Part shown: positions 33,941 through 63,061 of the stretch, piece after piece | How the letters are laid out: each line of letters starts with the position of its first letter | Numbering within the stretch: the first letter of the stretch is position 1 | NCBI GenBank assembly: GCA_947561395.2 | Contig: OX387185.1 | Coordinates: 23,627,866-23,691,865 of the forward strand | Direction of reading: 5' to 3' | Length of the DNA stretch: 64,000 nucleotides | Source: Buxus sempervirens | Taxonomy: Eukaryota > Streptophyta > Magnoliopsida > Buxales > Buxaceae | Notes under the pieces: generated by a model | The model's input: only the letters and a program-made list of their open reading frames with translations | Database searches by the model: none | What the model was told of the DNA's origin: nothing | Position numbers and translations under genes: made by a program

Positions 33941-35520
33941 CCGCTTGCCACGTTCGCACGAGCGACCAAATGAGTGAAAAACATTTAATGCGCCGCTCGT
34001 TTGTTTAAAAAATACAAAAATTAAGATATAGTCCCCGGGATATTTGGGTTTAATATTATTATATTCAGATATTTTCAAATATTTTCAGATTGGTCCTTGG
34101 GATCTTCTGAATGTTTGGATATTTACGGATTTGAACCCCGAGATATTTTCCTGCGCAACTCGCCACGTGTGCAGCTTTTTGCCACGTGCGCAGATTGACG
34201 GCTTTGCTGCTCGGGAATTTTGTCAGCTCATATTTTCTTCATTCGGGCTCCGATCTGGGCAAACTCAGTTGCGTTAGAATCGTATCGGAGTCCTCTATCC
34301 CATGACCTAGGGGTAGGCCTCTGGATCGGATTTTAGCAAAAAGTCAACTTTTGGCTCTGCTCAAGTTTGACCGCCCGCAGAACCCTCATCCGGACCCCGA
34401 TTCCTGCAAACTCAGTTGCGTTGGAACCGTGTCGAGATTCTCTATCCAATGACCTAGAGCAAGGTATCTGGATCGGATTTTAGCAGAAAGTCAACTTTTG
34501 GCTCTGCTCAAGTTTTACCGCCCGCAGAACCCTCATCCGAACTCCAATTCCTGCAAACTCAGTTGCGTTGGAACCGTGTCGGGATTCTCTATCCAATGAT
34601 ATAAAGCAAGGTGGCCAAATTTCTCTTGATCAAAAGGTCAACTTTTTGTCCCCTCGGGGTTTGACTTTCTGCCAGGGTTTTCATTTTCAGCAATTCCAGG
34701 GGTGCAAAAATAAGGTGCTTACACTAGGTGTGCGCACCTAATTTTGATCGCATGACGAGGCACATGTGGGATGTGCGTGCCTCGGGACATTTTGGAGTCA
34801 CCACTGCCTGAGAGGTGCAGGCAGACACAAAGGGGCCGCCTATCCGGGCCTAATTTTTCTGGTCTGCGGCTTTCTAGAGATCCTGGCTAAGTTCTCGGTT
34901 ACGTCCAGGGAAGTCCGAAGACACCCTGGCCCATGCTGTCGATTAGATGGGTCCTTCGGGTCTCCCTAGTTCGAGTCAAATTAATTCTCACCCAATTCCT
35001 AGGCCACCAAGTATCTTTTTAAGTCTGAGGGGACCGTTTTCAAGGTGTAGATCCCTCTTGTTTTATTTTTATTTTGTTATTCTCTTTTTTTTTGTGAAGT
35101 GAGTCGGGAACGGGTCCTGTTGGAAGGCCCATGGGTTGCCAGATTGGGCTTGAGCCCATGGCCTAGTAAGGTTATTGGGTAACCCTTTTTGGTTTGGGTT
35201 TAATTTGATTTAAAGATTAATTAAAGCATGCAAGTTTGGTTGGTTCAGTCTTTTAGGGCCCAATGGACTTGGATTGGGCCCAAGGACAATTAACCAAACG
35301 GCTGAGACCCATTATTAAAATGGGCCTCGGTTTGGGCCGGACTGGGTGTGGGCCCCGTTGGAAGGCTCACAAAGCCTTGGCGGGCCCAGTTGGGTCCACG
35401 GTCTCAAAATGGCCTTGGAATAGTCCAAGAAGCCCAATGGGTTCATGCATATCCAAATCGGGTTGGATCGGGTCCAACCGGGTCAAAAATTGGATTTTTT
35501 AATTAATTTTGAGATTGGAC

Positions 35521-35605
35521 TGCACTTAAAGTGCGGTTTGGGCTAAACCACATACCTAATGCGGTCAAGCTTGAACCACACTTAGTATGCGGTTTTGGCC
35601 CGATT
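35521..35605 (-). repeat. Leader palindromes of element A (ACCGCACTT word)
   Basis: Inverted repeats GCACTTAAAGTGC, ACCACATACCTAATGCGGT and ACCACACTTAGTATGCGGT. They share the word of the array upstream of the TATA box in the same LTR, about 0.9 kb away. The 5' LTR has the same at about 61338-61415. Confidence 0.72.
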
Positions 35606-36420
35606 TCCAAAAAAGCCGCTTTGGCCACTGGATCTGGTTCGTCGGCTTCTCAGGGACGTCCGTTGGCTTCTATTGGGTTTCCAAACATTCCCATGCTGCA
35701 AATGTCTTGTCCTTAGTTCATATATCCTCCTTTTTTGGTGTTCCGCAAAGGGAAAGGCCTTAACTCTTCATTGCCCGTTCAAGTCATTTGCAAGCATGCA
35801 TATGTATGGGTCTAACCAAGAAGGGAAAGAGGGAAGAGAGTTAAGGGTACATAGGATGACTGAAGGAGGACAAACCCCTCCCAAAATAAGATGATCAAGT
35901 TAGCATAGAAAGGGGTTAGTGTGAAAACATTAAAATGAATCCCTTTACTTTATGTGAACCATCCCTCCTCCCATATCTTTGCATATGGCATCTCCTTTCA
36001 TCAGGAGACTCCCATGGCATGCAAAAGGAAGCAAAAGGTGAGTAGAAAACAACAAAATACAGGAAAATATAAGCTTCAAGAAAAAAAAAGAAGGAAATTG
36101 ATAAGAACAATTTGATGTTGATATATATCAAGTACAAAGGCGAGGAAAGGCTCACATTGTTGTTACCTTTCTGTTCCGAGGTATGGTTATACTCCGGTTA
36201 ACGTGGACAGCACCTCGGCTCCTCCCTTGATTCCAAAATGGTCACTTTCTGGTTTTCAAAGGATTAGAAGGGAGAAAGAGATGAAAGAATGTCTTCAAGG
36301 GCAAAACAGGAATTAGGCAGAGGTTTGGGTGAGCAGGGAAAGGTTCAGAGAGCTGGGAAGTAGCTGGAGAGGTAGGGGCGGTTGGGTTCCAAGGCCTTCC
36401 AAATAATGGAGGCTGGGGCT

Positions 36421-36690
36421 CTATTTATAGGCAAAAAAGTTCGGAACTGCACTTGAAATGTGGTTCTGTGTGATTTGGTCAAAACCGCACTTTAAGTGTG
36501 GTTCCTCTTAAATTGCACTTGAAATGCAAAAACCGCACTTAAAGTGCAGTTGGCATTAAAAACGTGCGAATCTACGCGAATCAGACAGCTGTCACCAGCT
36601 AGCGACAGTTGGCGAGCTTCTAGAAGATCAAAACCGCATTTGAAGTGCGGTTCAGACCAAACCGCACTTTAAATGCGGTCACGCACGTTT
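36421..36690 (-). promoter_or_regulatory. Element A promoter: TATA box and palindrome array
   Basis: TATA box at 36421-36430 on the minus strand. Upstream (36444-36690) are about seven inverted repeats on ACCGCACTT / AAGTGCGGT, such as ACCGCACTTAAAGTGCAGT and AACCGCATTTGAAGTGCGGT. The copy in the 5' LTR is at 62240-62500. Confidence 0.75.
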
Positions 36691-37252
36691 TTTAAATGCT
36701 GGATTTGAAACACTTTATTAAATTTGATTTTTAATAAAGATTTTATCTGATTTTCTTATTATTATATTAAAAAATCTTAGATTCTTTTATTAAAATATTA
36801 TTAAAAGATTAAGATATTTTAATAAATATTTATGTTATTCATTTATTCTTCTTTTTGCTGTTGTTTTGCCACACAGGGAGTTTTCTTGAAAATTTAACTG
36901 CCCATAACTTTTTCATCCAATGTCCGATTTCAGCAAACTTAGTGTCGGTGGAATCAGCTCGGAACCCTCTATCCATTGGAATTAAATTAGGCAGCTGAAT
37001 TGGGGTCGAGCCAAAAGTCAACTTTCGCTCCACCAAAAGTTTAACCAGCTCATAACTTCCTTAGCCGGACTCCGATTCCAGCAAACTCAGTTGCGTTGGA
37101 GCCGAGTCGGAATTTCCTTTTCAATGGAATGAAGTATGTAGGTCAATTTGTACTAGATCAAAAAGTCAAATTTTGGCCCCCTCGGGGTTTGACTTCTTGG
37201 ATTAGAATTTCATTTTCTACACTTTTTGGGGTGCAAAAATCAGGTGCTAACA

Positions 37253-44345: not shown

Positions 44346-45314
44346 GCGCGGACAACTCTCTGTTTCTTGGAAAAATCCATGACTGGATGGGTTTTTGAGC
44401 TCTGTAACACTTCCCCGTGCTTCCTCAGACTCCCAGAAGACACTTAAACACAAATTGAAGTTAAAATAGCACAACTCAAAGCATGCTAGCGAACTTCGAT
44501 AAGATTATTTCAGACTAGGGGGTGTGTGCGTATGCTTCTAGCACTCAAGATATCAAAGAAAAACCATACAAGATAAGCCAACAGCAAGAACACATGCATG
44601 CTTAGGTGGGAACAGCATACCCTATATGTGCAAGAACATGACAGGTGGAATCCTTAGCTAGCATGTATCACCTATGAATCATAGCAACATCAGAACCTAA
44701 GATCCATGCTTCAACTCAAGAAGATTCAGAGAAGGGAAAGAGAAGGGGGGTTTATATGGGGTACATTGGACATGCTCATTGTGAGAGAACATACTCCCTT
44801 TACTGGATAACTGAGAATCCCCAGGCAGCAAACTTGGAAGACAATAACAACAAGAGAGATAAAACAGCATCTTAGAAGGCATAAAAATGAGATGGATTCT
44901 CTTCCATTCTCAGAGAACTAAGCGTGGGGTCTGTCTTACCTTTAGAGACCCCCACCTTAACGGCAAGTGAAAAAGATGCATGCAAATGGTCACCAGGACG
45001 GATCCGGCTAGGGGAGAAGACAAACTTAAGAGCTCTTTAAAAAGCTCCCATTTTTATATATGTGAGACAAAAGTCGGTGAGAAACAATACCTGAGGGTTC
45101 TTAAACTCTGGTGTAAGGTGGAGGCTCTTCCTCGAGGTGACACCAGTGCTGGGGCTTTATTCCTCTTGCACCAATGGCAGCAGCAAGCCTGTAAGTGTGA
45201 AAACTCACACTCCTTATATGGAAAATGTTTGACAAATTATATCTTCTAATAATCTTCAAGATGTGCAGAATCAAAATGTAAGTTCTGTGAATTTAATAAA
45301 GAGGAAGGTGATGC

Positions 45315-45701
45315 TGTCACACCGCTACCACTTCGCTGGTAGCTCAAGGAAATGTAAGGTTTTCTAAATAAAGAACATTTCCTAAAGGCACTTGCGAGGA
45401 ACAACGCCGCTACCACTTCGCTGGCAGCGCATAAGTGAAATAGCGCTTTGAAAGTAAAGTACGCGCACTTGCGTCGTAAGGCAACGCCGACACGCCGCTG
45501 GTAGCGCAGAGCAAGATTGAAGAATCTAAATATCAGTTGTGCTCATGCCGCGTTCTCTCCCGCTAGCAGCGCGCTGGCAGTGCACCCTTAACTGGGTCAA
45601 TTTGGATTTGAGCGGGACTTGAGTTCGCTTCCAGCCGTCTACCCCGATCGCAAGGCGACACCACCAGCGCTCGATGTGATCTGAGTTTTCTTCTTTAAAT
45701 A
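45315..45701 (+). promoter_or_regulatory. Element D promoter: TATA-like box and GCTGGTAGC word array
   Basis: TTTAAATA lies at 45694-45701. Upstream are repeated inverted repeats: perfect arms GCTACCA / TGGTAGC with loop CTTCGC (about 45323-45342), CGCTACCA / TGGCAGCG with the same loop, then CCGCTGGTAGCGC, CGCTAGCAGCGC and GCTGGCAG. The same word family recurs before the internal TATA box at 52308. Confidence 0.7.
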
Positions 45702-45888
45702 GACGAGCTGTATTTTTTTTGGAATGACTTTTTCTTTTGATCAATTCGATTTGGATCTTGAGGTATTCGAGATTCAATCAATTCATCTTTAGAGAGTCGG
45801 TGATCGAGTGAGGGGGAGATCTGAGAGAGATCTCCTGGAATTGAAGTTTGAGGATTCTTCTTCATTTTAGAACTTCACATGATCGTAT

Positions 45889-46117
45889 GATCTCCTAGAT
45901 TGGTGATCGAGCTTGATGGATGCATAGGTGGATTCCTATTGCATTGGATCATCTCAGTGGACTCTGAGGTGATTGTTACGATCTGGATTGATCGTGAATT
46001 GCAGCTTGTGGATTCAAGTTGTGTTACAGTTCGTGGATTCGAGCTGTGGATCTGGATTGATCGTGAATTGCAGCTTGTGGATTCAAGTTGTGTTACAGTT
46101 CGTGGATTCGAGCTGTG
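45889..46117 (+). repeat. Hairpin array with constant TGGATT loop, element D LTR
   Basis: Downstream of the TATA box are consecutive hairpins with a six-base loop TGGATT (or TGGACT/TAGATT). Left arms with positions: GATCTCC (45889), ATGCATAGG (45920, one bulge), ATCATCTCAG (45948), TTACGATC (45976), GCAGCTTG (46001), ACAGTTCG (46026); the last two recur in the second 69-bp repeat (about 46070 and 46095). Stems of 7-10 bp are unrelated in sequence. Mismatches on this strand are mainly G-U pairs. The 3' LTR has the same array with one more repeat. Confidence 0.88.
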
Positions 46118-46347
46118 GATTGCTGTTGAGTGAGTTCAATTGTAAAGGTTAAGTGTGTTTTCCTTTGTAATTGATTTTCATTTAATAGTGGAGATTCTAA
46201 GGGTTAGTCGCCTCATATAGACTCGAGGTTTTTCCTGGATCTGGATTCAGGTTTCCTCGTATAAATTCTGTGTGTATGTTTCCGTATTGTTAAGATCATA
46301 ATTGTTGTAGATCGAGGACCTGTAGAGTAGTCTCCTACTCTTTCAAT

Positions 46348-46359
46348 TGGTATCAGAGC
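46348..46359 (+). promoter_or_regulatory. Primer-binding site of element D
   Basis: TGGTATCAGAGC, two bases after the LTR. This is the standard plant Copia site complementary to the 3' end of initiator methionine tRNA. Confidence 0.95.
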
Positions 46360-46405
46360 CTATTCACTTTGAATTGTTATACAAAGTGTGATCTAGATCT
46401 ATAGC

Positions 46406-47356
46406 ATGGACTTTGGTAAAGAAGGAGGATCTGCCTCTAGACCTCCATTATTTGAAGGTAACAATTATTCTTACTGGAAAGCAAGGATTAGAGCTTACCT
46501 GAAATCTATCGATGAGCGTGTCTGGCTCTCGGTATGTAATGGTTATCATCCACCAGAAATCACAACAGAAGGAGGTATTGTGATGCCTAAACCTCATGAT
46601 CAGTGGAGTAAAGCTGAATCTGATCTATGTGGATGGAACAACAAGGCAATGAATGCCTTATTTTGTGCTGTAAGTGTTGAGGAATTTAGGAGAATTTCCT
46701 CATGTGAAGTAGGTAAGGAAGCTTGGGACATTCTTGAGGTCACTCATGAAGGAACCTCAGCTGTCAAGCTGTCTAGACTTCAAAGACTTACAACATCTTT
46801 CGAAACTCTATACATGAAAGATGATGAGTCCTTTGATGAATTTTATGCTAGACTTTCGGATATTGTTAATTCGAGTTTTAACCTTGGAGAAAAGATCTCT
46901 ACATCCAAGGTTGTTAGAAAGATCTTGAGATCCTTGCCTGAAAAATTCAGACCAAAAGTTACTGCCATTCAAGAGGCAAAATATGTGGATACCATGAGAA
47001 TTGAAGATCTTGTAGGATCTTTACAGACTTGTGAGCTAGATCTGAATATTCCTAAAAGGAGTAAAGGAATAGCTCTAAAATCTGTAAATAATGAAGAATC
47101 AGATAATTCTGAAGTAGATCTGGATGAATTAGTTCTCTAAGCTAAAAAGTTCAAGAGAATGTTTAAAAAGAGACAATCTAATCCTTTATTATCCATGGAC
47201 AGATCTAATAGAAGATCTGATAAGAAAATTTCTAATCTAAGAAAGGAGAAGAAATTTTCTCAGAACGATGAAGTTCAATGCTATAAATGTAGAGGATTTG
47301 GACATGTTGCTTCTGATTGTCCCTCAAAGGATAAAAAGAAAAAGACAAATTATTAG
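46406..47356 (+). pseudogene. Gag of element D, first part with zinc knuckle
   Basis: Starts at ATG 46406. It has the Copia gag domain (RPPLFEGNNYSYWKARIRAY, WNNKAMNALFCAV, SFDEFYARLSDIVNS, LRSLPEKFRPKVTAIQE) and a CCHC zinc knuckle CYKCRGFGHVASDC near 47277-47320. Gag packages element RNA. The start matches SIRE-type gags. It is a fossil, lightly damaged. Confidence 0.88.
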
Positions 47357-47399
47357 GTTACTTGGGATGACAGTAATACTGATAATTCTTCACAATCAG

Positions 47400-48720
47400 A
47401 TGAGGATATTTCTGCTAATTTTACTGCTTTCAATTCCTTTTACTCATCTTCTTCTGGTAGTTCAATCTCTGACATTGTAGGAGATAATAAAGAAAGTCTA
47501 TCAGATGATGAAGAAGAATTACAAGAAGCCTACAATCAGCTATATAAGGAATTCAATAGAGCTCAGAAGAAAGTCAAGAAACTGAGTAAAAAATTGAAGA
47601 AGTCAGAAACAGAGAAAAATAAAGCTTTTGCAGAAATAGATTCAATAAACAAGAAGTTACTTGAAAGACATGTCAAAGAAAATTTTCTGGTAACTTCTTT
47701 GACTGAAAAAACTGAAAAATTAAAAGAAAAGGAAGTTCAGATTTCTGCACTTCAAGGTAAAGTTATTGAACTTGAGAAATTGTCAAATTCAATTAAATCT
47801 AATGCTTCAAATTTTTCTGCAGGAAATCATCAAATTGATGAGGAATCAACTTCAAAGGAAGTTACTGAAAGCTCAAATTCTGCTGAAAAGAGAATGATTG
47901 TAAGTAATCAAAATAAGGAATTTTCACAGAAAATTTCTGCTGGAGAAGTAAGCTCAACATGTAAATCTTCAAAATCTAAAAAATCTAAATCTGTACAGTT
48001 TAGAAATACTGTCAAATCTGGAAATTTTGATTCTTCTGAATATAGGTTCATACTTGTGTGCCATCATTGTAATAAAAGAGGTCATATAAGACCAAAGTGT
48101 CATGTTTTGCATGGTTTTCCCAAGGGATATTTTGACAGTAAGAGGAAAGTAAATCAAAATCAGTCCTTGGATTTACATAACAGATTTGATTCCTTGTTAA
48201 AATTGACTGAATCATTAAATAAGGAAGTTACAAATCTGTCAAAGAAACTTCCTTCAAAATCCCAAGTTGTTGATGAAGGTACTTCTCAGAAAACATATGA
48301 AAAACAGATTTGGGTTAGAAAAGACTTCTTAGTTGCAAATGTGGTTCATATAGCTTTGAAAGTTCATGATGTCAACATGTGGTACTTGGATAGTGGTTGT
48401 TCAAGACATATGTGTGGACATAAGTCTATGTTTAGTACCTTTGAAGAATATTTTGGTGGAAGTGTAACATTTGGTGATGGAAGTACTTCTCAAGTCAAAG
48501 GTAAAGGAACAGTAACTGGTCCTAATGGAGTTTGTCTAAAGAATGTGTTATTTGTATCTGGTTTGAAGGCAAACTTAATTAGTATTAGCCAGTTATGTGA
48601 TTCAAGATTGTTTGTCAACTTTACCAGAAAAGAATGTAAAATTTTGGATAATTCTGGTAGAACTGTTCTTATAGGTGTAAGAACAAGTGACAATTGTTAT
48701 GGAATCATTGGAAACAATGA
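47400..48720 (+). pseudogene. Gag coiled coil, second zinc motif and protease of element D
   Basis: An acidic and then Lys-rich coiled-coil stretch (about 47490-47820), then CHHCNKRGHIRPKC (about 48057-48100), a second zinc-knuckle-like motif, then the aspartic protease start MWYLDSGCSRHMCG (about 48378-48420, catalytic D in DSG). The long coiled coil and second zinc motif fit the SIRE/Maximus lineage. Lightly damaged fossil. Confidence 0.85.
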
Positions 48721-48739
48721 AAGCTCTTTAAAATCTTCT

Positions 48740-49850
48740 ATATGCAATGAAATTGATTTGTGGCATAGAAGACTTGGTCACATTAACTATAGAGATTTGT
48801 CAAAAATCTCTAAGTCTGAATTGGTTAGAGGAATTCCCAAGTTTGGGAACAATAAAAAGAAAGGAATGTGTGGTCCTTGCAATCAAGGAAAGCAAATCAA
48901 AGCCACACACAAGAAAACCAACATTGTAGGAACCTCTAGACCATTAGAACTAATTCATATGAACTTGATGGGACCTATAAAGACTGGAAGTCTTGGAGGA
49001 AAGAGGTATATCTTTGTTGCTGTAGATGACTACAGTAGATACACCTGGGTAAATTTTCTAAGAGAAAATCTGAATGTTTTGATTGCTTTAAACAATTGTG
49101 CTGTCAAATTCAAGTTGAAAAGAACTTGCAAATAGGGAGGATTGTTAGAATAAGATCTGATCATGGGACAGAATTTGAAAATTAGATGTTTTCCAAGTTT
49201 TGTGAAGAACAAGGAATTAAACATGAATTTTCTGCTCCTAAGACCCCACAACAAAATGGAGTTGTGGAAAGGAAGAATAGAGTTTTGCAAGAAATGGCTA
49301 GAACCATGATGATAGCCAAGAAAGTGTCAACAAAATTCTGGGCTGAAGCAATAAATACTGCCTGTTATATAAGTAACAGAGTATATGTCAGATCTGGGTG
49401 GAAACAAACTCCTTATGAAATTTGGAAAGGAAAACAGCCAAACTTGAAATATTTTAGAGTTTTTTGAAGTAAATGTTATATCCTAAGGGACAGAGAAAAT
49501 CTAGGAAAATTTGATTCTAGAAGTGATGAAGGAATTTTTCTAGGATATTCCTCTTCAAGTAGAGCATACAGAGTTTTTAATTTGCAAAAATCTGTTGTAA
49601 TGGAGTCTATTAATGTGTTAATAGATGATGAAGGAATTGACTGTGAATTTTTGCAGGTTGTAGATGAAGAGGATGAAATCAGGATGCTTCCTCAAGTAAT
49701 GAAGTTGTTCCTCTGACAAAAACTCTCAAAGACCACCCAACTGAGCAAATTGTTGGAAATATTTCAGATGGAGTAAGAACAAGACATCAATTACATAATG
49801 AGGTAAGATTTTCTTCTTATTTATCTCAATTTGAGCCAAAATCTTATAAA
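48740..49850 (+). pseudogene. Integrase of element D
   Basis: The pre-integrase zinc-binding segment LWHRRLGHINYRDLSKIS with CGPCNQGKQ (about 48757-48900), the catalytic core start RPLELIHMNLMGPI and VAVDDYSRYTWVNFL, then APKTPQQNGVVERKNR (about 49230-49280, catalytic E) and ARTMMIAKKV. The end grades into a poorly conserved linker before reverse transcriptase. Fossil with a few breaks. Confidence 0.87.
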
Positions 49851-49856
49851 GATGCC

Positions 49857-51359
49857 TTGTTGGATGACTCTTGGTTAAATGCTATGCATGAAGAACTAAA
49901 CCAATTTACTAGAAATAATGTATGGGAATTGGTTGAAAGACCCTCTAATCTGAATGTGATAGGAACCAAATGGATTATTAAGAACAAATCTGATGAGAAT
50001 GGGGTTGTAACCAGAAATAAAGCTAGGCTTGTTGCTCAGGGATACACCCAAGTAGAAGGAATAGATTTTGATGAAACCTTTGCTCCTGTAGCTAGGTTAG
50101 AGTCAATCAGATTGCTTTTGTCTATTGCATGCTATTTGAAGTTTAAATTGTTTCAAATGGATGTTAAGAGTGCATTCTTGAATGGATATCTGAATAAAGA
50201 GGTTTATGTAGAGCAACCTAAAGGATTTGAGGACTCAAATTATCCTAAACATGTTTATAAGCTGAACAAGGCCTTGTATGGACTCAAACAAGCTCCTAGA
50301 GCTTGGTATGAGAGACTCACCTCTTTCTTACTTGAATTTGGATTTATGAGAGGAAATGTGGATAAAACTCTCTTTATTCAAAAAGAGTCCAAGCATATTT
50401 TGATTGCTCAAATCTATGTTGATGATATAGTGTTTGGATCTACTTCTGAAACTCATGCTCATTCCTTTGGAGACTTAATGAAGAGTGAATTTGAGATGAG
50501 TATGATGGGTGAACTGAATTTTTTCTTAGGACTTCAGATTTATCAATCTCAACAAGGGATTTTTTTCTCTCAAGCAAAATATGCAAGAAATCTAGTCAAG
50601 AGATTCAGTTTAATTCATGCAAAACATGCTAGGACTCCTATGAGTACTAGCTTAAAGCTTGGAAAAGATGAATCTGGGAAGGATATAGATCCTACCTTGT
50701 ACAGAGGGATGATTGGAAGTCTTCTGTACTTAACAGCAAGTAGACCTGATATAAGTTTTAGTGTTGGAGTTTGTGCAAGATATCAGGCTAATCCTAAAGA
50801 ATCTCATCTAAATGCTGTGAAAAGGATTATAAAGTATGTAAATGGAACTGTTGATCTGGGAATTTGGTTTTCCAAAGAAACAAACTCATATCTTACTGGA
50901 TACACTGATGCTGATTGGGCTGGGTGTATGAATGATAGAAAAAGCACCTCTGGTGGTTGCTTTTATATGGGTAATAACCTCATTGCTTGGTTAAGCAAAA
51001 AGCAAAACTCAGTTTCACTGAGTATAGCTGAAGCTGAGTACATTGCTGCAGGTAGCAGTTGTACTCAACTAAGTTGGATGAAACAAATGCTATCTGATTA
51101 TGGTTTAGATCAGGATCAAATGATTCTCTTCTGTGACAATCAAAGTGCCATAAATATTTCCAAAAATCCTGTTCAACACTCAAGGACTAAACATATAGAC
51201 ATCAGGCATCACTTTATAAGAGAGTTAATTGAAGACAAAACTGTTATGATTGAATATATATCTACTGAAAAACAGTTGGCTGATATTTTCACTAAACCTT
51301 TAGATCAGAACAGATTTGAAACTCTTAGGAAATCCCTAGGAGTATGCTCTCAAAACTGA
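49857..51359 (+). pseudogene. Reverse transcriptase and RNase H of element D
   Basis: Long open Copia reverse transcriptase: [75 protein letters not shown], and the YVDD box in [10 protein letters not shown] (about 50413). RNase H follows ([39 protein letters not shown]) and ends with [15 protein letters not shown] and ADIFTKPL. Domain order and length are normal. As a block it looks undamaged, but the element around it is broken. Confidence 0.93.
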
Positions 51360-52197
51360 AAATCAGGTTTTGTTTTGAGTTAATTTAGATGTAAAATGAT
51401 TTACATGTCTGTTCAAAATGAACTTATGTGTTCTTGATACTAAAATCTTAATTCAGGAAGCTTGAGTCTATGCATATTGATAGAAATGTCTTGTAATCAA
51501 CTATCAATTTTGTCTTAAACACCTTTGTGTATTGAAGTTTATTGTGTGTTGAAGCTTGGGATCTATAGGCTATCACCTTTATGAAAAGAAAAGTTTTGGA
51601 AATGGCTGCCATAGAGATTAGAGTGAAAGCCACTGTAATTCTCAAAAAGAAAAAGATAAAGAAGGTATATTCTTGGAATGAATTGTAAACTCAGGTTTTT
51701 TAAGGGTCAATGCCTTCTACAAAAAGAAAAGAAAAAGAGATCAGAAAAGGCTACCTATCTCTGATGTGCGAAAGCCACCAAAATGAAGTTTGGGGTATGT
51801 CTATACTTTCCAAGTATGATTACACTAAAATAGCCTTCCATATGTATAAAGTGTAAAAGTCAAAAATGTATTTCACACACTACACAAGCATTGATTCATT
51901 AATATGCATGTGTGCTCAATATCTTGAAGAAAATTTATAGTATGAGAAACCATGAAGGAAATTTTGGCCATAGATATGAAATGTATCACATCTGAATTAA
52001 CCTTGATAGGTTCTTCAAGATCAGTTTTGTGATAATTACTTCTTGGATTGAATAAAAGTTGATTATCTGGATGATTTTTAGTTCAGTTAAAATCTTAGCT
52101 TTGTGTTTAGATGTATGAATTTTTCATGAAGAATAGTTCAAACTCTTTTTATAAATTTTTTCCTTGTGACTGTATTTTTTCTTGATTGTGCATGTGC
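51360..52197 (+). other. Non-coding gap after pol in element D
   Basis: 0.84 kb of AT-rich sequence between the end of RNase H and the internal promoter-like region. I see no coding remnant. Confidence 0.6.
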
Positions 52198-52314
52198 ACC
52201 TTCTACGTCGCTAGAAGCGTGCTGGTAGCCCTCTCCCTTCTTTCGTGCTTTGGCACCTGCCCTGTTAAGCATCGCTGGATGCACGTTGGCAGCGAGATCT
52301 TTTTGTCTATAAAA
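52198..52314 (+). promoter_or_regulatory. Internal promoter-like region of element D
   Basis: CTATAAAAAGGGG has a good TATA box at 52308-52314. Upstream (52198-52300) are inverted repeats of the LTR word family: arms CTTCTA around CGTCGC, GTGC around TTTG, GCATC around GCTG, and the strings GCTGGTAGC and TTGGCAGCG. It lies about 310 bp upstream of the env-position ORF and is followed by a pyrimidine-rich leader with CAGGTAAAA at about 52440, a possible splice donor. Confidence 0.6.
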
Positions 52315-52625
52315 AGGGGAAATCTGTTTCACTTTTTACCTCTGTTTTTCTTTTTGTCTTTGTCTGCGATTCACCTCGCTCCTCGCATCGTGGTAATTCG
52401 TTGCCTTCGTTCTTCCCTTCCTTCACCTTGTCCACTGTTCAGGTAAAAATTTTTTTACTGTCTTCGTCTTTCTTCTTCATTTTCTTCTTCCAGTTGCAGT
52501 GTTCTGCTCTCGTTCTTCTAAGTTAGGGTTTGATAGATTGTTCTGCTATTAGGGCTTTGTCGTGCTTTGCTTGTTTCTGTTTGTTTGTTCTCTCTCTTCT
52601 ATTTTTTTTCTCCTGTTTTTTCATC

Positions 52626-53912
52626 ATGCCTCCCAAGAAAAAGTCTAGGACTGATTCTCCTTCCACATCTTCTCCACCAGTGAGAACCTCTCCGGTTGTC
52701 TCTTCTCCACCAGTGAGACCCCCATCCCCTTCACCTTCATCTGAACCATTCATTGGAAATGGTTTGTCTGATTATAATGATTTCTTCAAGCACAGGCCAC
52801 TCCTCTTGGAAAGGGCCATTAAGCTTGACTCCTTCTCTGACACTCCGCTCTTCTCCTTGTTTTCGGACAATGGATGGAAGAAATTTGCTCTGATAAATGG
52901 TTTTGCTTATCAAGACCTGGTTCAAGAGTTCTATTCGAACCTCCACCATCTTCATCTTGCCAATCAAGGCTTCGTCAAAGCCTATGTCCGGGGAATCTTT
53001 GTCGACTTCTCGAAAGAACTTATCTCCTCTCTTCTGGAACTGCCCATTGTTGAATCTCCTTCTTTTGACTTTCTATCCTCTCACTCTGATCCTCCCATGG
53101 AGTCAATAATTTCTTCTCTTATTGTTCAGGGTGCTCCCACCTCCATCAAAAATAAGCCAAACTATCTTCCTCATGGCTCTCTCCAAGATCTTCTCAGGAT
53201 CTTGAATCTGTTCATTTGTGCTTCTCTTGTTCCCTTAGATCATCATTCTGAAATTTCTCACTCTTGAGCAAGACTCCTTCATGCTCTATGGAACAGAAAC
53301 AGTGTCTGTCTCCCTTCCATCATCTTCAATCAGATCATTCAGTCTCGGAATTTGAAATCCAAGACTTCTGCTCTTCCCTTTGGGATTTTCATCACTTACT
53401 TGTGCATTCACCAAGGGATCCTACCTGATCCTGTTGAATTGATCCTGCACCCCAAACCTCCCATTGATGCCTCCACCCTTACCAAAAGCAAAAGAGCGAA
53501 TCCCTTTCGGTTGGCTTCTTCGGAGCCTTCTTCTTCTCAATCCTCCTTGTCCAATTCTGATGCTATGGCAATCATGGACAAGTTGAATTCCATGCAAACC
53601 TCCCAGGAGGCTTTCTATTCTGAAGTAAGGGCTCAAATGCTCATGATGAGCATGTTCAAATCCGAGACCCAAGAGAAGCTGGATAAGCTCGCAAAGGATG
53701 TCGATTTTGCATGTGGCGAGGAGCAAAGGCATGTTGCTGCGCAGCAACGCATGCAAAATGAAGCTGATCATTTTCTCAGTAGCATTCGCAAAACCCAGTT
53801 GGAAATGGATCACAAGTTGTGTTGGCTGCACTCCCGGTCCCAAGATGCGTACAGGCATTATTCAAGAACTTGGGAACCAAAACCTCCTCCCAGAAAGGGG
53901 GAGTCATATTGA
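52626..53912 (+). pseudogene. Env-position ORF of element D (plant transposon protein-like)
   Basis: Begins MPPKKKSRTDSPSTSSP at ATG 52626, with a basic nuclear-localisation-like start and a Ser/Pro-rich N-terminus (to about residue 40). The segment LFSDNGWKKFALINGFAYQD, VQEFYSNLHH, AYVRGIFVDFSKE (about 52855-53020) resembles the putative plant transposon protein domain (from memory, Pfam PF20167). A coiled coil follows near the end (about 53565-53815). SIRE-type elements carry an env-like ORF here, but I see no clear signal peptide or membrane anchor inside it; the hydrophobic stretch just upstream of the ATG is in the leader. It is a fossil with one or two breaks. Confidence 0.68.
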
Positions 53913-54167
53913 TGATACTGCTGGTGGTTGATGAACTTTTTAGTTTTTTTTGGTCTGTTGTTTTTTTTGTGTTTTCTGGAAGTTGGTTTAAGGGGGAGTT
54001 TTTTTTTGGTTGAATGTATATATATCTTCTGAACAATGTATATTTTTTTTTTGAAATGAATGAATTTCTGAGTTCTCCCTTATCATTGTGTTTTGAATGC
54101 TTAAATGGAAATCAATATCTGAATTTGATATTAAGCACTGTTTTAAGCTTGTTGTCAGGCATTTGCC

Positions 54168-54178
54168 AATGGGGAGAT
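54168..54178 (+). promoter_or_regulatory. Polypurine tract of element D
   Basis: AATGGGGAGAT directly precedes the 3' LTR start TGTAAGTGTG. Confidence 0.8.
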
Positions 54179-55392
54179 TGTAAGTGTGAAAACTCACACT
54201 CCTTATATGGCAAATGTTTGACAAATTATATCTTCTAATAATCTTCAAGATGTGCAGAATCAAAATGTAAGTTCTGTGAATTTAATAAAGAGGAAGGTGA
54301 TGCTGCCACACCGCTACCACTTCGCTGGTAGCTCAAGGAAATGTAAGGTTTTCTAAATAAAGAACATTTCGTAAAGGCACTTGCGAGGAACAACGCCGCT
54401 ACCATTCCGCTGGCAGCGCATAAGTGAAATAGCGCTTTGAAAGTAAAGTACGCGCACCTGTGTTGTAAGGCGACGTCGACACGCCGCTGGTAGCGCAGAG
54501 CAAGATTGAAGAATCTAAATATCAGTTGTGCTCATGCCGCGTTCTCTCCCGCTAGCAGCGCGCCCTTAACTGGGTCAATTTGGATTTGAGCGGGACTTGA
54601 GTTCACTTCTAAACGTCTACCCCGATCGCAAGGCGACGCCACCAGCGCTCGATGCGATCTGAGTTTTCTTCTTTAAATAGACGAGCTGTATTTTTTTTGG
54701 AATGACTTTTTCTTTTGATCAATTCGATTTGGATCTTGAGGTGTTCGAGATTCAATCAATTCATCTTCAGAGAGTCAGTGATCGAGTGAGGGGGAGATCT
54801 GAGAGAGATCTCCTGGAATTGAAGTTTGAGGATTCTTCTTCATTTCAGAACTTCACATGATCGTATGATCTCCTGGATTGGTGATCGAGCTTGATGGATG
54901 CATAGGTGGATTCCTATTGCATTGGATCATCTCAGTGGACTCTGAGGTGATTGTTACGATCTGGATTGATCGTGAATTGCAGCTTGTGGATTCAAGTTGT
55001 GTTACAGTTCGTGGATTCGAGCTGTGGATCTGGATTGATCGTGAATTGTAGCTTGTGGATTCAAGTTGTGTTACAGTTCGTGGATTCGAGCTGTGGATCT
55101 GGATTGATCGTGAATTGCAGCTTGTGGATTCAAGTTGTGTTACAGTTCATGGATTCGAGCTGTGGATTGCTGTTGAGTGAGTTCAATTGTAAAGGTTAAG
55201 TGTGTTTTCCTTTGTAATTGATTTTCATTTAATAGTGGAGATTCTAAGGGTTAGTCGCCTCATATAGACTCGAGGTTTTTCCTGGATCTGGATTCAAGTT
55301 TCCTCGTATAAATTCTGTGTGTATGTTTCCGTATTGTTAAGATCATAATTGTTGTAGATCGAGGACCTGTAGAGTAGTCTCCTACTCTTTCA
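54179..55392 (+). repeat. 3' LTR of element D
   Basis: 1,214 bp, about 98% like the 5' LTR by eye. It has three copies of the 69-bp repeat (54961-55167) against two in the 5' LTR. TATA-like TTTAAATA at 54672-54679. Followed by the target duplication AAGCC. Confidence 0.93.
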
Positions 55393-58299: not shown

Positions 58300-58915
58300 T
58301 TATTTCCACGTGATAGGATTCTGGAAACGCGAAGCGTTGATTTCCATAGAGAAACTTATTGAGTTGACTTCTTGATTATTTGATTTGGGGTGTGGAGACT
58401 CGAAAGGTTGATTTTGAGAGCAGCGGAAATGCAGAGCGTTGGTTTCCATTAGAAGTTCTGGAAATGCAGAGCGTTGATTTCCAGAAGATTTGAGATTTTG
58501 GGAAACGTGGGGCGTTGATTTCCCGGAGTAGTGGAAACGCAACGCAGAGCGTTGATTTCCACTAAAAGCTCTGGAAACGCAGAGCGTTGATTTCTAGAAG
58601 ATTAGAGAATTTTGGGAAACGCGAGGCGTTGATTTCTCGGAGCAGCGGAAATGCAGAGAGTTGATTTCCACTAGAAGTTCTGGAAACACAGATCGTTGAT
58701 TTCCAGAAGATTAGAGAATTTTGGGAAACGCGGGGCGTTGATTTCTCGGAGCAACAGAAACGCAGAGCGTTGATTTCCACTAGAAGTTCTAGAAATGCAG
58801 AGTGTTGATTTCCAGAGGATTTGAGAATTTTGGGAAACGCGAGGCGTTGATTTCTCGGGGCAGTGGAAACGTAGAGCGTTGATTTCCACTAAGATTTGGG
58901 AAACTACAAGAGTTG
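58300..58915 (-). repeat. Pre-gag tandem hairpin array of element A
   Basis: About a dozen units of roughly 40-55 bp. Sense-strand hairpins have outer arms GGAAA or GGGAAA and TTTCC(C), an inner pair CGC/GCG and a three-base loop TCT or CTC (GGAAATCAACGCTCTGCG then TTTCC). Two unit types alternate, joined by AGAACTTCTAG and TTCTCTAATCTTCT. Same place relative to gag as the arrays of B and C. Confidence 0.8.
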
Positions 58916-60552: not shown

Positions 60553-60555
60553 AGC

Positions 60556-63061
60556 TGTGTGCACCTAATTTCGATCGCACGACGAGGCGCACGTGGGATG
60601 TGCGTGCCTTGGGACATTTTGAAGTCACCACTGCCTGAGAGGTGCAGGCAGACACAAAGGGGCCGCCTATCCGGGCCTAATTTTTTTGGTCTGCGGCTTT
60701 CTAGAGATCCTGGCTAAGTTCTCGGTTACGTCCAAGGAAGTCCGAAGACACCCTGGCCCGTGCTGTCGATTAGACGGGTCCTTCGTGTCTCCCTAGTTCG
60801 AGTCAAATTAATTCTCACCCAATTCCTAGGCCAGCAAGTATCTTTTTAAGTCTGAGGGGACCTTTTTCAAGGTGTAGATCCCTCTTATTTTATTTTTATT
60901 TTGTTATTCTCTTTTTTTTGGTGAAGTGAGTCGGGAACAGGCCCCTTTGCAAGGCCCGTGGGTTGCCAGATTGGGCTTGAGCCCATGGCCCAGTAGGGTT
61001 ATTGGGTAACCCTTTTGGTTTGGGTTTAAGTTGATTTAAAGATTAATTAAAGCATGCAAGTTTGGTTGGTTTAGTTTTTTAGGGCCCAATGGACTTTGAT
61101 TTGGCCCATGGGCAATTAACCAAACGGTTTGAGACCCATTATTAAAATGGGCCTCGGTTTGGGCTGAACTGGGTGTGGGCCCCGTTAGAAGGCTCACGAA
61201 GCCTTGGCGGGCCCAGTTGGGTCCACGGTCTCAAAATGGCCTTGGAATAGTCCAAGAAGCCCAATGGATTCATGCATAGCCAAATCGGGTCCAACCGGGT
61301 CAAAAATTGGATTTTTTAATTAATTTTGATATTGGTCTACACTTAAAGTGCGGTTTGGGCTAAACTGCATACCTAATGCGGTCAAGCCTGAACCGCACTT
61401 AGTATGCGGTTTTGGCCCGATTTCCAAAAAACGCCGCTTTGGTCGCTGGATCTGGTTCGTTGGCTTCTCAGGGACGTCCGTCGACTTATGTTGGGTTTCC
61501 AAACATTCCCATGCTGCAAATGTCTTGTTCTTAGTTCATATATCCTCCTTTTTTGGTGTTCCGCAAAGGGAAAGGCCTTAACTCTTCATTGTCCATTCAA
61601 GTCATTCGCAAGCATGCATATGTATGGGTCTAACCAAGAAGGGAAAGTGGGAAGAGAGTTAAGGGTACATAGGATGACTGAAGGAGGACAAACCCCTCCC
61701 AAAATAAGATGATCAAGTTAGCATAGAAAGGAGTTAGTGCGAAAACATTAAAATGAATCCCTTTACTTTATGTGAACCGTCCCTCCTCCCATATCTTTAC
61801 GTATGGGATCTCCTTTCATCAGGAGACTCCCATGGCATGCAAAAGGAAGCAAAAGGTGAGTAGAAAACAACAAAGTACAGGAAAATATAAGCTTCAAGAT
61901 AACTAAAAATGAAATTGATAAGAACAATTTGATGTTGATATATATCAAGTACAAAGGCGAGGAAAGGCTCACCTTGCTGTTACCTTTCTGTTCCGAGGTA
62001 TGGTGATACTCCGGTTAACGTGGACAGCACCTCGGCTCCTCCCTTGATTCCAAAATGGTCACTTTCTGGTTTTCAAAGGATTAGAAGGGAGAAAGAGATG
62101 AAAAGAATGTCTTCAAGGGCAAAACGGGAATTAGGCAGAGGTTTGGGTGAGCAGGGAAAGGTTCAGAGAGCTAGGAGGTAGCTGGAGAGGCAGGGGGCGT
62201 CTGGGTTCCAAGGCCTTCCAAACAATGGAGGCTGGGGCTCTATTTATAGGGGAAAAAGTTCAAAACCGCACTTGAAGTGTGGTTCTGTGCGATTTGGTCA
62301 GAATCGCACTTTTAAGTGCGGTTCCTCTTAAATTGCACTTGAAATGCAAAAACCGCACTTAAAGTGCGATTGGCATTAAAAACGTACGAATCTACGCGAA
62401 TCGGACAGTTGTCACCAGCTAGCGACAGCTAGAAGATCAAAACCACATTTGAAGTGTGGTTCAAACTAAACCACACTTAAAATGCGGTCGCGCATGTTTT
62501 TTAAATGTTGGATTTGAAACACTTTATTAAATTTGATTTTTAATAAAGATTTTATCCGATTTTCTTATTATTATATTAAAAATATTAGATTCTTTTATTA
62601 AAATATTATTAAAAGATTAAGATATTTTTAATAAATATTTATTTTATTCATTTATTCTGCTTTTTGCTATTGTTTTGCCACACGGGCAGTTTTCTTGAAA
62701 CTTCAACTGCCCATAACTTTTTCATCCAATGTCCGATTTCTGCAAACTTAGTGTCATTGGAATCAGCTTGGAACCCTCTATCCATTGGGATTAAATTAGG
62801 TAGCTGAATTGGGGTTGAGCCAAAAGTCAACTTTCGCTCCCCCAAAAGTTTAACTGGCTTATAACTTTCTTATCCGGACTCCAATTTCAGCAAACTCAGT
62901 TGCGTTGGAGTCAAGTCAGAATTTACTTTTCAATGGAATGAAGTATGGTAGTCAATTTTCACTAAATCAAAAATTCAAATTTTGGCCCCCTCAGGGTTTG
63001 ACTTTTTAGATTAGAATTTCATTTTCTGCACTTTTTGGGGTGCAAAAACTAGGTGCTAACA
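60556..63061 (-). repeat. 5' LTR of element A
   Basis: 2.5-kb partner of 34729-37252, with TATA box at 62240-62249 (minus), promoter palindromes at about 62260-62500 and leader palindromes at about 61338-61415. It ends at 63061 and is followed by CTATG, close to CTAGG at the other end of A. Confidence 0.9.

Follow-up and report, generated by a model that had tools for sequence, protein, structure and literature searches.

A retrotransposon in the 64,000-nucleotide stretch of Buxus sempervirens DNA analysed here (the window) carries in its LTR a row of short hairpins whose loops are nearly identical and whose arms differ from hairpin to hairpin. The locus raises the question of whether these hairpins are real RNA structures kept by selection and, if so, what might recognize them. 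The array is located inside the LTR, downstream of a TATA-like box (45694) and upstream of both the primer site and gag (Table 1). The loop is UGGAYU, with UAGAUU once, at nine positions of the 5' LTR. The initial annotation had claimed at least six TGGATT-type hairpins; the six that it named are present in a Copia LTR at 45889-46049, and the count is corrected to nine for the 5' LTR and to twelve for the 3' LTR. The two LTRs differ because a tandem 69-bp unit is present in two copies in the former and three in the latter. Owing to this duplication, three of the nine 5' hairpins are repeats, one of them with a stem of only 4 bp. Stems otherwise measure 7-11 bp, and from H2 onward the hairpins are separated by gaps of 0-2 nt. 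Each stem was said to be matched by its own complement, which is mostly correct, except that the GATCTCC stem contains a T.T mismatch and that ATGCATAGG pairs only with a one-base bulge. The arms differ, as had been described, but GCAGCTTG and ACAGTTCG are related 25-mers rather than unrelated sequences; when their right arms were exchanged, 46 of 48 cells stayed paired (arms identified by hand from the comparison rows). At one of the twelve loop positions of the 3' LTR, 55150, the closing position is unpaired.

The host is a Sirevirus-type Copia element. Pfam matches follow the Copia gene order (Retrotran_gag_2, gag_pre-integrs, RVT_2), and among the five ORF pieces none gave a match to the rve domain itself. 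The junction CA-ATTGG-TATCAGAGC is identical to the Sirevirus consensus as given in the available part of PMC2829016. The Sirevirus polypurine tract (PPT) is AGGGGGAG, with the attachment site AT/TG before the 3' LTR; the PPT-like ATGGGGAG of our element differs from AGGGGGAG by one base and is followed by AT and TG. The palindromes upstream of the promoter have the core CGCT-AGCG, whereas the core of the Sirevirus repeats (RMs) is CGG-CCG. Palindromes of the same or a close form are also found in the 3' LTR at 54407, 54484 and 54549, upstream of its TATA-like box. From the position of the 5' TATA-like box, transcription would start near 45720, downstream of the box, and the R boundaries are likewise predicted. 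The two LTRs are about 97.1% identical upstream of the array and 98.7% identical downstream. Among the best 120 Gag matches listed, the closest relatives with a named organism were from Vitis, Olea and Fraxinus (54-63% identity). Downstream of pol, an ORF at 52530-53264 matches Transposase_32 in Pfam (putative plant transposon protein, PF20167) and sits where Sireviruses may carry an envelope-like gene. Elsewhere in the window, direct long repeats at 34726-37229 and 60553-63038, 25.8 kb apart, are perhaps the LTRs of another element around the Copia element, and a 109-bp tandem repeat occupies 58541-58908.

Table 1. Features of the Copia element and its hairpin arrays (positions in the window)
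Feature	Position	Strand	Details
Sirevirus-type Copia element	45190..55392	+	target duplication AAGCC on both sides
5' LTR	45190-46345	+	1,156 bp
Three Sirevirus-RM-like palindromes	45419, 45495, 45560 (45419..45571)	+	CCGCT(G/A)G(T/C)AGCG or close; upstream of promoter
TATA-like box	45694..45701	+	TTTAAATA; mid-LTR, LTR position 505 of 1156
Hairpin H1	45889..45908	+	loop 45896-45901, TAGATT (TGGATT in 3' LTR); 7 positions, one T.T mismatch
Hairpin H2	45920..45944	+	loop 45929-45934, TGGATT; 9 bp, one-base bulge
Hairpin H3	45947..45974	+	loop 45958-45963, TGGACT; 11 bp
Hairpin H4	45976..45997	+	loop 45984-45989, TGGATT; 8 bp
Hairpin H5	46000..46023	+	loop 46009-46014, TGGATT; 9 bp
Hairpin H6	46024..46049	+	loop 46034-46039, TGGATT; 10 bp
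69-bp unit, second copy	46049..46118	+	H7, loop start 46053, 4 bp; H8, loop start 46078, 9 bp; H9, loop start 46103, 10 bp
LTR end CA, spacer ATTGG, primer binding site	46344..46359	+	TATCAGAGC, tRNA-Met type
gag, 5' part (Retrotran_gag_2)	46406..47140	+	Pfam
3' LTR	54179-55392	+	1,214 bp; same Copia element
Array of 3' LTR	54867..55165	+	three copies of 69-bp unit, twelve loop positions

Chance formation of the hairpins was evaluated with 2,000 dinucleotide shuffles of 45600-46348 and a stem threshold of 7 bp. The shuffles contained a mean of 0.0045 such hexaloop hairpins and at most 1, compared with 6 observed, so that the hairpin count was not reproduced by shuffled sequence. Across the window, 13 of 113 plus-strand loop sites had a stem of at least 7 bp, all 13 inside the two LTR arrays, and none of the 75 minus-strand loop sites did. 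The minimum free energy (MFE) of 45880-46135 was -98.7 kcal/mol (z -5.9), a value reached by 0 of 200 shuffles. Folding both LTRs had been proposed in the initial annotation. The unconstrained MFE structure of the 5' array shows all nine hexaloops, and in the 3' LTR the array is present, but in the MFE structure parts of one tandem unit pair with parts of another and not locally. Local folds were then computed in 200-nt windows with 40 shuffles each, with window starts 600 to 200 bases before the primer site. The lowest sense z ranged from -4.3 to -6.5 in six family copies, and the lowest among 31 LTRs without the array was -4.2 (L047); antisense values went down to -7.6 in the family and -4.9 in the other LTRs. 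In another LTR, L041, both strands fold very strongly (z about -9) 500-800 bp before the primer site, which suggests an inverted repeat.

The LTR sample consisted of 92 LTRs, namely 90 of 246 primer sites and both LTRs of the window. The array was found in 61 of the 92, which constitute the family, and was absent from 30 LTRs of other families; these 30 are Sireviruses by junction motif alone, and some are copies of one family. The remaining one, L018, comes from a family copy in which the LTR gives way to foreign DNA beyond 83 bp. As far as seen among the LTRs sampled, the array thus belongs to a single family. In the 61 family LTRs, the number of hairpins with unbroken stems of at least 6 bp had a median of 7 and a range of 2-11, and the number of 69-bp units differs among copies as well as between the two LTRs of the window element. 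TGGATT triplets spaced 17-23 bases were counted 2,473 + 2,551 times against 100 + 106 for the reversed pattern, with overlapping hits counted repeatedly. No match up to E 5 was obtained when 4227 Rfam RNA models were compared with 45190-46500, and no relatives based on reverse transcriptase were confirmed in viral contigs. TGGATT triplets occur at no fewer than 120 loci in viral contigs, where stems of at least 6 bp were present at 10 of 528 array sites among the loci listed. The only two viral loci listed with at least two such hairpins, L103 and L114, are 12-bp simple repeats and were rejected as unrelated. Hairpins of other kinds were also seen in the sampled LTRs: more than 83 bp before the primer site, L018 has hairpins rich in GGGCCCA-like and AACCCTAAC-like words, and L026 and L027, from another family, have three hairpins with near-identical stems and the loop TTTCT about 500 to 380 bp before the primer site.

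We compared the pairing among copies of the family. Loci with at least five TGGATT were taken as family members. For the block set, an H1-like site was needed, as was an H6 loop with no more than one mismatch. The count was passed by 82 loci; after removal of L030 and L079, 74 distinct rows were obtained. Twenty loci (L219-L238) were hand-picked from the listed TGGATT-triplet hits for subfamily diversity. These selection criteria inflate loop conservation somewhat, but not stem pairing. In the 74 distinct copies, 96.1% of 3,774 stem cells (51 stem pairs of six hairpins) were paired, and sliding the partners by 1-3 columns reduced this to 31-47%. Copies that had lost the pairing while keeping TGGATT, an outcome that the initial annotation had considered adverse, were therefore not what we found, as family copies stay paired. 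Unpaired cells occurred at H1 column 8/19 in 42 rows and at H4 column 91/112 in 30. Most of the pairing is shared by descent, since 95.7% of cells were still paired when the 3' letters were shuffled among copies. Cells changed on both sides numbered 16 (in 5 pairs) compared with 6.1 in the shuffles, and 0 of 500 shuffles were as high; the number of pairs varying on both sides was 5, which 28 of 500 shuffles reached. Covariation among copies was modest, with an RNAalifold covariation term of only -1.26 kcal/mol. Unconstrained RNAalifold recovered five of the six hairpins whole or in part and paired the H2 region differently. When the six hairpins of one LTR were compared with each other, 79 of 120 pair comparisons differed on both sides with both still paired, and among the 720 ways of dealing the right arms, the true assignment alone reached 47 of 48 paired cells.

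The fate of stem changes was informative as well. On a tree built from the upstream flanks of the copies, internal branches carried 26 stem changes that began from a standard pair, 21 of which again yielded one, and tips carried 96, of which 47 did (Fisher p 0.004). The flank spectrum gives an expectation for pair-keeping of about 27%, taken from raw cell counts uncorrected for base content or ancestry. The share of pair-keeping variants also followed their frequency, being 14 of 19 for variants in at least 4 copies, 6 of 13 for those in 2-3 copies and 9 of 31 for those in single copies (Fisher p 0.003 for at least 4 copies versus single copies). Because the copies share ancestry, copy counts differ from event counts. 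Such a contrast between internal branches and tips is expected where replicating elements pass a filter and copies, once inserted, are free to decay. The left arm of H5, AGCCTGTGGATT (CCTG), was found at 62 sites in the 676.5-Mb assembly, 58 with the matched right arm CAGG and 4 with the unmatched CAAG, in a count that covers CCTG with either of these two arms only. The matched state of H5 spread and the unmatched state hardly did. Several of the 58 sites are about 9 kb apart, like the paired LTRs of a single element, so the 58 sites are not 58 events and many may represent one lineage. Taken together, these comparisons of genomic copies show that RNA pairing, beyond the sequence alone, is maintained by selection in the replicating lineage of the family.

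The loops were more uniform than the stems. Of 444 loops in 74 rows, 358 were UGGAUU, 62 UGGACU, 12 UGGGCU and 12 others. TGGATT was kept in 158 of 160 H5 units, 154 of 158 H6 units and 61 of 62 H2 loops, while H3 loops were TGGACT in 44 of 62 and TGGGCT in 14 of 62, and TGGATA occurred in 22 of 150 H4-type units. Loop changes on internal branches (8 events) affected positions 4 and 5 only, whereas those at tips (18 events) affected positions 1, 2 and 3 too. Diversity in the 74 rows increased from loops (0.039) to stems (0.076) to linkers (0.186), an order that is reversed in H3, where the loop (0.080) exceeded the stem (0.032). In a comparison with the flanks, stems (0.058) were no less diverse than the 3' flank (0.055), and the 5' flank was at 0.103.

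As for the strand, the six best sites form stems of 8-11 bp in the sense reading and 3-6 bp in the antisense reading; the antisense stems are short because the wobbles are mostly G.U of the sense strand. In 74 rows, 492 wobble cells were G.U and 41 were A.C on the sense strand, and pair columns with a wobble type in at least 3 rows numbered 17 for G.U and 6 for A.C. The spectrum of both flanks pooled (C>T 192, G>A 184, T>C 222, A>G 84) would not yield the G.U excess, but the G/T-rich sense strand may itself raise G.U. Whole folds gave no clear sense preference (z -5.0 antisense versus -5.9 sense), and the lowest 200-nt z was antisense in 3 of 6 family copies. We therefore assigned the sense strand on the basis of the wobbles and the leader position. 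The compensating changes and the imbalance between G.U and A.C support the suggestion in the initial annotation that these are real RNA structures with a near-constant loop.

What might such an array do? The loop is near-constant, the stems can be exchanged, spacing is close to zero and copy number varies; from these traits we infer a multivalent binding array. Within the genomic RNA it would be part of the 5' leader and act as a multivalent docking platform for a protein, in which the stems would be interchangeable scaffolds, the loop with its exposed GGA the recognition site, and avidity would be set by hairpin copy number. Judging from the sequence, we give a protein-docking array an even chance. 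The likeliest candidate partner, proposed tentatively, would be the element's own Gag, whose zinc knuckle would read the loops so that genomic RNA is selected or condensed. A parallel with MS2 and CsrB leads to the equally tentative idea that the array, homogeneous and expandable, is a family RNA bar-code read by the family's own Gag; if true, the bar-code would set the RNA of one family apart from other Sirevirus RNAs sharing the nucleus. The absence of the array from the 30 LTRs of other families makes it unlikely to be a signal for Sirevirus Gag in general. Sirevirus Gag has been described with a CCHC knuckle in the part of PMC2829016 considered here. A candidate for such a knuckle, CHHCNKRGHIRPKC, was spotted by eye in an ORF of the window; with a Pfam threshold of E 0.001, none of the ORF pieces gave a zinc-knuckle match. 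According to passages of PMC7599994, retroviral zinc knuckles bind exposed guanosines such as those of the GGAG loop of Psi; replacing this loop in HIV-1, however, did not much affect packaging, which counts against Gag as the reader. A caution for the docking model also comes from STNV-1, whose proposed packaging arrays had no discernible role in vivo, as reported in an excerpt of PMC6475782.

A host RNA-binding protein acting in translation, export or stability, the next candidate after Gag, or a control of ribosome passage by scanning, shunting or internal entry, could also account for the array, and we regard this as unlikely but worth serious attention. The leader speaks for it, and its shortage of ATG also suits the docking array as part of a scanned sense leader. 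Between H3 and the array end, ATG was found 0 times compared with 6.4 expected by shuffles (0 versus 3.9 with the repeat counted once), and between the array end and gag once compared with 5.7 expected; in U3 it was found 8 times compared with 7.9 expected, and in the last 380 nt of the 30 other LTRs 171 times compared with 184. In the window, the ATG-poor sense stretch is 45946-46405, and 34 of 61 family copies are free of ATG from H3 to the last H6. Upstream ORFs (uORFs) start before or inside H1-H2 at 45879, 45887, 45916 and 45920 (3, 3, 3 and 15 codons). Four short uORFs near H1-H2 followed by almost no ATG until gag are a sign of scanning, and this pattern suggests that upstream starts have been selected against in the scanned leader of the array family. 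The shortness of every hairpin speaks for it too. In caulimovirus shunts, however, a uORF ends against one long stem, and there is no single long stem here for a uORF to end against; moreover, a mere ribosome obstacle would need no constant loop. Transcription could be the target instead, with the loops of a TAR-like nascent-RNA element recruiting a factor for transcription or elongation; we consider this very improbable. A conserved hexaloop is likewise found in retroviral TAR, and the array lies inside the LTR about 200-400 bases past the TATA-like box; but it does not begin at the inferred +1, and we know of no transactivator in the element. Two known RNA motifs were rejected. The Smaug motif is a CNGG loop, and the base preceding UGG here is C or G; the m6A motif includes GGACU, which is fitted by the UGGACU loops only (62 of 444).

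The initial annotation had offered a bound protein or an RNA-RNA contact, and the former appears to fit the sequence. In the latter, loops would pair with a receptor or hairpins would open into intermolecular duplexes for dimers, and it is improbable in our view. Paired with itself, UGGAUU would form tandem G.A with G.U on either side; the main loop variants (TGGATT, TGGACT and TAGATT) keep G/U, G/C or A/U at positions 2 and 5; and by raw count the element contains the wobble complement AATCTA 11 times. Against this, AATCCA, the exact complement, has a single occurrence (53356) in the 10 kb of the element, UGGAUU is not self-complementary and allows no Watson-Crick kissing between loops, and the TGGGCT variant (12 of 444) breaks the tandem G.A, so that a contact within the element is little supported. 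Other loop complements were AGTCCA, found once, and GATCCA, found nowhere in the element. Similarly improbable is a mutational by-product without function, produced by tandem duplication and hairpin-templated correction during reverse transcription. The variable number of 69-bp units would suit such an origin. However, template-switch correction would yield perfect Watson-Crick arms without G.U, and the constant loop, the rise in diversity from loop to stem to linker and the difference between internal branches and tips would be left unexplained; the rarity of hairpins at viral TGGATT triplets also argues against it. Very improbable, too, are DNA-level palindromes serving as transcription-factor sites or as hotspots of methylation and siRNA, like Sirevirus RMs. 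Sirevirus LTRs are known for palindromic repeats in the portion of PMC2829016 covered, Sirevirus palindromes of maize attract small RNAs (PMC10760457, in part), and the antisense strand of the array folds too. But the known repeats have constant arms and lie upstream of TATA, whereas the array has variable arms, a nearly constant centre and a downstream position, and the excess of sense G.U wobbles over A.C would be meaningless for DNA. In addition, stems of 7-11 bp are short as Dicer substrates.

The array offers a candidate, open to direct test, for how the genomic RNA of one element is distinguished from others. The genomic copies of the family record the selection on RNA pairing and also provide a natural series of array lengths. 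A stem with UGGAYU forms a short aptamer-like module that could serve as bait for a binding protein. Little literature was found on cis-acting RNA of plant LTR retrotransposons, BARE being one case. For this plant Copia element, the consulted part of PMC3735527 mentions conserved dimerization and packaging signals without sequence or shape, and no hairpin array. In Ty1, a yeast Copia relative, the leader RNA has Gag contacts near the primer site, which is a shared trait, but Ty1 uses a 5' pseudoknot and a hairpin array is not mentioned in the sections covered (PMC4974528). No such array was found in the literature searched, which excluded most subscription papers.

Three other known systems resemble the array in part. 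It shares with Sirevirus RMs the genus, the LTR, multiple copies and dyad symmetry; RMs, however, are DNA elements with constant symmetric arms and a CGG-CCG core upstream of TATA, whereas the array lies downstream and has variable arms, a near-constant centre and RNA-like pairing, and so falls outside the definition of an RM (PMC2829016, in the part available). In that paper, "hairpin" appears 0 times, "stem" once (a stem loop at the PPT) and "secondary structure" 3 times. Like retroviral Psi, the array consists of leader hairpins between promoter and gag, but Psi has a few distinct hairpins, as outlined in PMC7599994, and the Copia array is homogeneous. In bacteria, GGA in hairpin loops is the site of CsrA/RsmE (PMC4005645, partial text). 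The ANGGAX consensus of CsrB/RsmZ, with GGA at loop positions 3-5, does not describe the UGGAYU loop, which begins with U and has GGA at 2-4, and RsmZ, a small RNA in its own right, has four stem-loops, loops of 5-8 nt and a bacterial protein partner. The likeness to CsrB/RsmZ, as far as the same text describes them, lies in several stem-loops that present GGA in short loops, hexaloops included, for multivalent binding.
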